DNA from: Salinirubrum litoreum
GTDB lineage: Archaea > Halobacteriota > Halobacteria > Halobacteriales > Haloferacaceae
Assembly: GCF_020567425.1 (NCBI RefSeq)
Contig: NZ_JAJCVJ010000003.1
Span: forward strand, 372,001 to 436,000
Direction: 5' to 3'
Length of the DNA stretch: 64,000 nt
Under the pieces are notes generated by a model. It saw only the letters and a program-made list of their open reading frames with translations. It was not told the DNA's origin and did no database searches. Below, piece after piece: positions 35,182-37,274 of this stretch (positions are counted from its first letter, which is position 1; each line of letters starts with the position of its first letter). The position numbers were made by a program, and so were the translations under genes.

Positions 35182-35742
35182 ATGCTGCTCGAGGGCCTCG
35201 GCTTCCTGATCGGGCTCGGACTCCTCCTGGTCGGTGCCGACAGAACTGTCGACGCTGCCGCCGAGTTGGCACTCTACTACGGGATCTCGGCGTTCTTCAT
35301 CGGCGTGACCGTCGTGTCGATCGGCACGTCAATCCCCGAGATGACGACGTCGGTCTACGCGGCACTCTACGACGCCGGCGACCTGCTGGTGGGGAACATC
35401 GTCGGCTCGGAGACGGCACAGATCACCCTGGCCATCGGCGTCGTCGCACTGCTCTCACAGATCGAGGCCGAGCGACGGAACGTCCTCGTCTACGGCGGCG
35501 CGATGGTTCTGGCGATGGTGATCATGCTCCTCGTGCTCGAAGACGGCGTCCTCATCCGGTCCGAGGGCTTCCTGATGATGCTCGCGTACGTCGCCTTCGT
35601 CCACGACCTCTACTCCCACGAGGGCGGCGAGGAGGTCATCGACCCACGACTGAAGTCGCGGGCTTGTCCGTGGACTCCCGGTCTGACGACGAAGCGTCGT
35701 AGGCGGTGTAATCGCCGTTCCCGTTCAACGTCCCAGACTTGA
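35182..35742 (+). CDS. Half-size Na+/Ca2+ exchanger-like protein, 3' end altered by IS insertion
   Basis: Residues 1-150 contain one CaxA-type repeat (GVTVVSIGTSIPEMTTSVYA and LLVGNIVGSETAQITLAIG, the alpha-repeat signature) with about five TMs. A normal gene has two repeats in about 310 residues; the second repeat is absent. The last in-frame residues (after HEGGEE) are read from the IS1341 element and are not native. Beyond the element (37030-37079) a short frame ends TEVDPESED, which could be the original C-terminus. The gene may therefore have been half-size to begin with. Confidence 0.78.
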   Translation: MLLEGLGFLIGLGLLLVGADRTVDAAAELALYYGISAFFIGVTVVSIGTSIPEMTTSVYAALYDAGDLLVGNIVGSETAQITLAIGVVALLSQIEAERRNVLVYGGAMVLAMVIMLLVLEDGVLIRSEGFLMMLAYVAFVHDLYSHEGGEEVIDPRLKSRACPWTPGLTTKRRRRCNRRSRSTSQT

Positions 35743-35790
35743 GGGCGAGATGACCGTCGCCCAACCCAGAGGGGCGTTTGCCCTCCGGTA
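35636..35790 (-). ncRNA. Predicted omega (re)RNA from the right end of the element
   Basis: For IS200/IS605 elements the RNA spans the tnpB 3' end and right end, with the guide from the adjoining flank. The scaffold here would be the 3' part of tnpB plus the hairpin at 35643-35662, with guide CTCCTCGCCGCCCTCGTGGG, the reverse complement of 35615-35634. This is inferred from known TnpB biology and the preserved hairpin. The upstream limit is arbitrary. Confidence 0.42.
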
Positions 35791-36889
35791 AAGTTAGCAG
35801 TTTCAGGCCAATATTCTTCGCCGCGTTGTAGTCACCATCAACTGAGTACCCACAGTCGTTGCACTCGAACCAGCCGTCTGAGCTACGGTTCGTGCTGGAC
35901 TGATGGTCGCACTTCGAGCAGGTCTGACTGGTAAACGCAGGCGGAATCTGCTCGACGCGAATCCCGTACTCACTGGCCTTGTACGCGAGCATCTCTTGGA
36001 GTTCGCGGAACGCCCAATTGTGCATCTGACGCTTCACTTGGTCGTTCCGATTGTTCATCCGCTCGCGGATGTGGGTCAAGCGTTCGACAGCGATGTACGA
36101 ACAGTCGTGGGTGTCTGCCTCCTCCACGATGCGTCGAGAGATAGTGTGCAGGCGATTCAGCACGAAGCGGTTTTCTCGCCCCGACAGTCGCCGGAGTACC
36201 TGCTTGGCGGAGCGAGTGCCTTTGTGCTGAAGGCTTCGACGCACCCGGAAGTAGTGGTTCTGCCCCCACAACAGTTCGCCACCATCGTAGAACGAACCCG
36301 TACTGGTCACGGCGACGTTTTTCAGGTTCAAGTCCACGCCCAGTATCTTGTCACCGTCGCGTTCTTCGACTTCTTTCTTGATGACGATGTGGAGGTAGAA
36401 CGCATCCTCGTCCTCGCGGTAGTGGAGCGTTCCCATCCGTTTCTCGTAGTCGTCATCATCGAGGTAGGACTTCTGGTAGTCACCGAGAACGTAGTCTACG
36501 GCGACCCGCCCGTTGATGGTCGAAAGAGTGGCCAACCTGTCCTTGATGGTCAACGTCCGTTTGTCGTAGACAGCGGACAGTTCGTTGAATTGAGGGAGTG
36601 GTCGGCTGGTACCCTTCTTCCAGTCTGCGACGGTGGACTTCATCGCTTCGACGGCTTTGGAGTAGGCGCGAACGCAGAGGTTCGCGGGTAAGTCTGTCTC
36701 GTCTCGCAAGTCGTGGTACACTTCGTCGTGTATCCTCGACCTGTTGAGGATGAGGTAGCCGTCGTTGTTTCTGCCGTGCTGGACGGTGTAGTTGCAGGCG
36801 TGGTTGAACTGCTCGATGGTCTGATGGAGGTCGTCCTCTCGGTCTTTTGGAACCGAGAGTTTGACCGGAATGGTTCGTTTGACCTCCAT
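35636..36889 (-). CDS. tnpB: TnpB RNA-guided nuclease (OrfB, IS200/IS605 family)
   Basis: This 417-residue protein has a RuvC-like split nuclease with Asp186 (KILGVDLNLKN), Glu269 (YIAVERLTHI) and Asp353 (VDGDYNAAKN). A zinc finger uses Cys324, Cys327, Cys343 and Cys346 (TCSKCDHQ and CNDCGYS). All catalytic residues are kept, so nuclease activity is plausible. The stop codon lies inside the element's right end, so the 3' coding region overlaps the RNA scaffold. TnpB uses an omega RNA to cut DNA beside a TAM, and here it would be guided by the flanking sequence. Confidence 0.93.
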   Translation of the reverse strand: MEVKRTIPVKLSVPKDREDDLHQTIEQFNHACNYTVQHGRNNDGYLILNRSRIHDEVYHDLRDETDLPANLCVRAYSKAVEAMKSTVADWKKGTSRPLPQFNELSAVYDKRTLTIKDRLATLSTINGRVAVDYVLGDYQKSYLDDDDYEKRMGTLHYREDEDAFYLHIVIKKEVEERDGDKILGVDLNLKNVAVTSTGSFYDGGELLWGQNHYFRVRRSLQHKGTRSAKQVLRRLSGRENRFVLNRLHTISRRIVEEADTHDCSYIAVERLTHIRERMNNRNDQVKRQMHNWAFRELQEMLAYKASEYGIRVEQIPPAFTSQTCSKCDHQSSTNRSSDGWFECNDCGYSVDGDYNAAKNIGLKLLTLPEGKRPSGLGDGHLALKSGTLNGNGDYTAYDASSSDRESTDKPATSVVGR

Positions 36890-37274
36890 CTGTGACTTTA
36901 CGTGCGGAGCGTTGCTTTATAAATCTACGACTGACGTAGGGGAGTCGGACTGCCATCGCTCGTGGTTTGATTCGAGGCTTGTCAGATTCCTCTCACGGCT
37001 AAAGCCGTGGGCTTCCTCCTTGCATCTGTGTGAAGAACTCGGTATCGTCACCGAAGTCGACCCCGAGTCCGAGGACTGACACCGACCGGCCGGCCAGGGC
37101 GATGCTCGACCGTGCTCGTTCGCGCGGCGTCGAGGCGACCGGGTGACCGGGGTCGGGGACCAGGGGGACCGTGTCCGGAGCGTCCCCAGCAACGTCCGAG
37201 GCCGGCGACAGGTACAGGCGACTCCGAGGGATGGACATCGTTTTAGGGCCGACCCGACACGCTTGTCGTGTCAC

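Follow-up and report, generated by a model that had tools for sequence, protein, structure and literature searches.

IS1341-type elements of haloarchaea have been described from Haloquadratum (ISHwa/HqIRS) and Natronomonas (ISNph), where they carry tnpB without tnpA, feature near-terminal palindromes and are accompanied by terminal-only copies (Dyall-Smith et al., PMC3119063). The 52-bp terminal-only copies, known as PATEs, are described there as arising by deletion between the near-terminal palindromes, and a 'terminal oligonucleotide' was taken as the targeting sequence from strain-specific insertions. The main text of that paper contains no word beginning TTCAC, TTTAC or CTCAC. For ISDra2, whose TAM is TTGAT, cutting of the re-sealed site by TnpB has been proposed (PMC8612924). 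IS608 has the target TTAC, which goes with the left guide AAAG, while its right guide GAAT goes with TCAA; the pairs A+16:T-3 and A+17:T-4 are named (PMC5934647), and from the IS608 sequences we infer that guide position 4 pairs with -1. A TAM of TCAC has been measured for the bacterial AmaTnpB of Alicyclobacillus macrosporangiidus (PMC10278001). In H. salinarum, omega RNAs (sotRNAs) with a right-end hairpin and a pseudoknot between the loop of a second hairpin and the transposon end are expressed (PMC12558985). The openly accessible literature searched yielded no TAM measured for a haloarchaeal TnpB.

The window analyzed here is a stretch of 64,000 nucleotides from Salinirubrum litoreum (NZ_JAJCVJ010000003.1, positions 372,001 to 436,000), and positions below are those of the window. 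It contains a complete IS1341-type (IS200/IS605) element of 1395 bp on the minus strand (35635..37029), of a sub-type termed A. The element belongs to an already known family, and this kind of system is well known. It differs from the elements of Dyall-Smith et al. (PMC3119063) in its organism and in that the TAM is tied here to guide tetranucleotides and an omega RNA. With ISDra2 TnpB and IS608 TnpA it shares the RuvC and zinc ribbon layout, the right-end omega RNA, insertion 3′ of a short target, and GL/CL and GR/CR pairing, although its motif is TCAC rather than TTGAT or TTAC, and it has no tnpA.

The ends of the element are set by three own-genome copies, whose TnpB proteins are 96-100% identical and whose sequences diverge beyond the element. 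Their right ends are common through ...GTCGTGGGTCGATGAC (...GATGAC) and then read CTCCTCGCC, TGACTGATG and GACACCGTC. Since the three copies agree up to this point and diverge directly after it, the element ends at 35635, which corrects the 35636 of the original prediction, and the predicted guide in the flank past the right-end hairpin starts where it had been placed. At the left, the element starts at 37029 with ACAGATGC. There are subterminal hairpins at both ends without terminal inverted repeats, namely CCCACGGCTTTAGCCGTGAG on the left (36992..37011, minus strand) and CCCGCGACTTCAGTCGTGGG on the right (35643..35662, minus strand). The latter forms the 3′ stem of the omega RNA, a 9-pair helix with two-sided changes in 3 pairs. 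The last bases, CGATGAC (35635..35641, minus strand), include the right cleavage site TGAC (CR) and supply the 3′ strand of a pseudoknot in the predicted omega RNA. In the wider survey, right ends were searched with a pattern ending in TGAC, so their agreement on TGAC is by construction, and the independent evidence for it comes from the three own-genome copies. One surveyed right end (L028) reads GATGGC, an exception to TGAC. Some relatives (L025-L031 and L034) have far longer end hairpins, with an insert-like extension within the stem, and their borders are still TCAC and TTGAC.

The tnpB gene (35636..36889, minus strand) encodes 417 amino acids. The RuvC residues D186, E269 and D353 and the zinc ribbon cysteines C324, C327, C343 and C346 are all present as had been claimed, and they are invariant in an alignment of 34 TnpB sequences; this is the RuvC D-E-D and zinc ribbon arrangement of TnpB (OMEGA) RNA-guided nucleases. 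The Pfam profiles Cas12f1-like_TNB (83 bits) and OrfB_IS605 score above cut-off, and the matches among PDB sequences are Cas12f and TnpB chains, including ISDra2 TnpB (1.5e-6). An AlphaFold model (mean pLDDT 75.6, with a tail below 50 from residue 367) again leads to the Cas12f and TnpB families on structure comparison, with a large whole-chain rmsd. The protein is a putative RNA-guided nuclease with intact catalytic residues, as had been suggested from its sequence.

The omega RNA scaffold as analyzed spans 35635..35784 (minus strand), with a structure derived from the alignment. An alignment of 18 sequences gives several helices within the last 150 nt. Including the pseudoknot, two-sided changes are found in 16 of 46 pairs, and 97.6% of cells are paired versus 36-44% in slid versions, a comparison that favors the unslid version because the structure was derived from the same alignment. 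The loop of the second hairpin, GTCATCT (35748..35754, minus strand), acts as the 5′ strand of the pseudoknot and pairs with the last bases of the element. In general form, GTCA-X-CT in the loop faces a terminal AG-Y-TGAC, and X-Y covaries (UA 11, AU 6, GC 5 and GU 1 in 23 distinct rows); 7 of the 23 rows, that of the window included, lack the outermost pair. The terminal TGAC thus doubles as right cleavage site and pseudoknot strand. As in TnpB (OMEGA) systems, the predicted omega RNA fold occupies the 3′ end of tnpB and stops where the element stops. A single-sequence fold of scaffold plus guide reaches only z = -1.57. The layout resembles that of the H. salinarum sotRNAs, but covariance models of the Rfam sotRNA families RF02656 and RF02657 gave no match at E <= 1 (22000-47000) or E <= 10 (35550-36100), and here covariation of the pseudoknot was counted. 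Sub-threshold Rfam matches to Acido-Lenti-1, Ms_AS-1 and TTC28-AS1_4 were taken as chance. Judging from the changes and invariant residues in the alignments, both TnpB and its omega RNA are evidently under constraint.

The window holds four sites at which TCAC adjoins A(C/G)AGATGC (23163-23174, 37022-37033, 41955-41966 and 45267-45278). With at most one mismatch, this 12-mer is found 4 times against 0.38 expected, a number reached in 0 of 100 shuffles, while TCAC has a background rate of 0.0054 per position and strand. The observation that TCAC stands at all four left-end copies is thus confirmed above shuffle expectation. Further copies were collected with the left-end seed AGATGCAAGGAKGAAGCCC, in which TCAC and the two adjoining element bases were left free; in the own genome the seed was slightly wider and one mismatch was allowed. 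TCAC precedes 9 of 9 left ends in the own genome. Among 170 family genomes, 29 exact seed matches occur outside the own genome, of which two (G069:C29:286824 and G178:C6:54729) were left out of the count and 27 were read, 25 of them with TCAC. Counted together with the nine own-genome copies, 34/36 left ends follow TCAC, the exceptions being L159 (TCTC) and L178 (TCGC).

A larger set of 63 unique flanks includes divergent relatives, with 31 TnpB-selected loci among them. In this set TCAC is found in 58 flanks, or 59 once L030, which is off by one base in the flank table, is read correctly as TTTCAC followed by CCAGAAAACC. Three duplicates and L039, which has no left end, were removed, and L033, L047 and L049-L095 were not used; two pairs of labels, L016 and L179 as well as L045 and L160, stand for the same flanks. 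The divergent left-end patterns were picked by eye, which can favor TCAC, and 34/36 is therefore the unbiased figure. An automatic left-end search of 47 of the 49 loci L047-L095 (L065 and L079 skipped) gave, besides L048, a single doubtful hairpin and not one end that could be used, so the survey covers TnpBs down to about 50% identity and, in addition, sub-type B. Among the 63 flanks, the base preceding TCAC is T in 25, C in 24, G in 10 and A in 4. Because this base varies, the motif is TCAC, and TTCAC (22/63) is too narrow. Of the TTCAC-like TAM originally predicted, the TCAC part is upheld by the 34/36 copies and by element-free sites, whereas the fifth base, T, is not. Two copies on one Halorussus aquaticus plasmid, unnamed2 (L023 and L024), have identical flanks, as expected if a segment was duplicated and not if the element had inserted twice.

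A motif that is nearly invariant beside a conserved left end could be the 5′ terminus of the element itself, moving with it, as the original prediction had allowed. Element-free sites speak against this. L162 is an element of the sister sub-type B, which shares its left-end sequence with sub-type A and whose TnpB is 43% identical to that of the window; it lies in a Haloferax-group gene. Its joined flanks match eight other genomes of the same genus, each of which runs through the junction without a break; five read GATTCAC/ATCGAG, two TTCGC/ATCGAG and one TCCAC/ATCGAG (slash at the junction). Element-free relatives thus keep TTCAC at the junction, which an own terminus would leave there only as the footprint of an earlier excision. 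Furthermore, TCAC stays constant among relatives whose adjoining left ends diverge wholly (ACAGATGC, AGGAATAG, CTGAAGCGG, CAGAAAACC and AGCGGTAC). The idea of an own terminus is refuted on these grounds and is left with a very small probability. TCAC lies in the target with the right flank directly after it, so that the empty site equals TAM plus guide. In the window, TCAC (37030..37033, minus strand) is accordingly assigned to the flank as left cleavage and target site (CL) and predicted TAM, on the evidence of multi-copy flanks and element-free sites, and its role as TAM is better supported than the original prediction could make it.

IS200/IS605 elements insert 3′ of a short target and do not duplicate it, and this is found for sub-type B (8/8 loci contiguous) and approximately for sub-type A. 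The exact element-free sites belong to sub-type B, and none was found for sub-type A, that of the window copy. At L179, a sub-type A locus, the flanks are collinear in three relatives, with a spacer too diverged for a TAM reading. One element-free paralogue of L168 is contiguous and reads CCTAC/CCGCC compared with TTCAC/CCACC, and is thus without TCAC.

The element of the window interrupts a calcium/sodium antiporter-like gene, of which the N-terminal half (35182..35634, plus strand), recognized by homologue comparison, is cut off after codon 151. Antiporter homologues continue for about 155 residues past the insertion. The C-terminal half was not found elsewhere in the genome, which has only paralogues of 30-38% identity, and the element's left flank (37030-37080) is not a continuation of the gene; the element therefore marks the junction of a deletion or a rearrangement. 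Searched as DNA in 99 genomes, this left flank gave only chance-level pieces outside the own genome. The antiporter genes of relatives run on and are unlike the left flank of the window. An ancestral empty site is thus not claimed or shown at this locus, since the C-terminal half is lost and the left flank has no convincing match in relatives. In one relative (L139), GGTCAC stands directly before CTC at the matching antiporter codons, which is suggestive only.

The feet of the hairpins provide a further line of evidence on TCAC. By the IS608 rule (PMC5934647), the left guide tetranucleotide GAAG (37012..37015, minus strand) predicts T-C-n-C and the right guide tetranucleotide CAAG (35663..35666, minus strand) predicts T-G-n-C. 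Both predictions match, a left foot of GAAG (or GATG) corresponding to TCAC and a right foot of CAAG to TGAC, and the guide tetranucleotides pair with both cleavage sites as in other IS200/IS605 elements. Over 62 copies, guide 1 pairs with -3 in 60/62, guide 2 with -4 in 60/62 and guide 4 with -1 in 62/62, compared with 9/62 for the unpaired position, and the TCTC and TCGC exceptions alter only the unpaired base. Since the guides vary little (GAAG/GATG) in this TnpB family, this amounts to consistency more than covariation and is no proof. The left-foot tetranucleotide offers a simple rule for TAM prediction. ISH12 of phiH1, taken as a test of the foot rule, has a target resembling TTGAT and does not obey the tetranucleotide rule in the form applied here.

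As in the IS1341 group, tnpA is absent from the element and Y1 genes are found only elsewhere in the genome, at three TnpA-like loci, one of which has an internal stop. One locus (L012/L184, own genome C2, about 11700-13300) is a TnpA+TnpB element with canonical IS608-like sites and feet (TTAC/AAAG and TCAA/GAAT), and might supply TnpA in trans. That this own-genome TnpA element with readable ends uses TTAC, not TCAC, counts against the overall reading favored below.

TCAC could also be the target of TnpA only, with TnpB reading another motif or being no longer an active nuclease. TAM activity was found in only 27 of 59 TnpB orthologues (PMC10278001), and in Sulfolobus islandicus a TTCAC preceding the native guides of TnpB7 failed as a TAM, the cognate TAM being TTTAA (PMC11043419). 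However, the Sulfolobus TTCAC sits at the right end and not at a left target site, and TnpB and omega RNA are evidently under constraint. Also, the TnpA target of ISDra2 is the TAM of its TnpB (PMC8612924), and the TAM of AmaTnpB is the very tetranucleotide seen here; AmaTnpB is bacterial, with activity shown, and is likened to the window TnpB, whose activity is predicted, by TAM and not by sequence. A restriction of TCAC to TnpA is thus unlikely. It is even less probable, and barely credible, that the host has taken over TnpB for RNA-guided regulation or defence. From expression, an antiviral role has been suggested in one study of a haloarchaeal TnpB (PMC10544981), but the catalytic triad and the ends are intact here, and near-identical copies have different flanks, so that their guides, being nothing but flank sequence, differ freely between copies.

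The reading that we consider very probable is that of a non-autonomous IS1341-group element with TCAC as target and TAM, TnpA acting in trans, and omega-RNA-guided recutting of the empty site. The element lies directly 3′ of a TCAC that is part of the target, and it ends ...TGAC. Guided by the GAAG and CAAG feet, a Y1 TnpA in trans would excise one strand from TCAC to the terminal TGAC. The tnpB transcript would yield the omega RNA from its 3′ portion, with the flank CTCCTCGCCG... as its 3′ tail; the first 20 bases past the right end, CTCCTCGCCGCCCTCGTGGG (35615..35634, minus strand), are the predicted guide and derive from the antiporter gene. TnpB with this RNA would cut the re-sealed empty site, TCAC plus guide, and repair from a sister copy would restore the element. 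With this, a haloarchaeal TnpB gains a concrete predicted TAM (TCAC, not TTCAC), together with exact element borders, a predicted guide and a model of its omega RNA.

Where the element is in place, the match to the guide follows TGAC, one TAM base away from the empty site, and this difference may spare the filled donor. Elsewhere in the genome no TCAC-plus-guide target exists within 2 mismatches, and the sole site within 3 has 3. TnpB should therefore cut the re-sealed site only, provided that G at -3 is rejected. We tentatively propose, at slightly less than an even chance, that TGAC has a triple role, as right cleavage site via CAAG, as 3′ half of the pseudoknot and as a mark of 'self', while GAAG sets TCAC as both target and TAM. 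One G/C base per foot would then write the difference at -3 between an empty site, which is cut, and a filled one, which is spared. This offers a one-base hypothesis for TnpB self-tolerance; if true, TnpA targeting, omega RNA folding and self-tolerance would be locked together, and TAMs could be read from the left foot.

The three solo copies of the window had been described as left ends only. Their left ends with TCAC are as described, but both ends are present: each is a 46-bp unit of left end, single hairpin and right end on the minus strand. Like PATEs, they are about 50 bp long, with both ends fused via one palindrome and a shared target motif; the count is three for the window and five for the genome. 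Two have sub-type B ends (23125..23170, with TCAC at 23171-23174, and 41917..41962, with TCAC at 41963-41966) and read AGAGATGC...GTAACTGAC, like the full element L004. The third (45229..45274, with TCAC at 45275-45278) has sub-type A ends, the right one decayed (TTTC for TGAC). The solo at 23125 is absent from two relatives, in which the spacer has diverged. At another own-genome locus (L003/L098, C2, about 1420190), the left flank has TCAC followed by GACACCGTCGCGAC, close to the first 14 bases of that locus's own guide GACACCGTCACGAC, and this TAM-flanked near-match lies some 25 bp from the left end.
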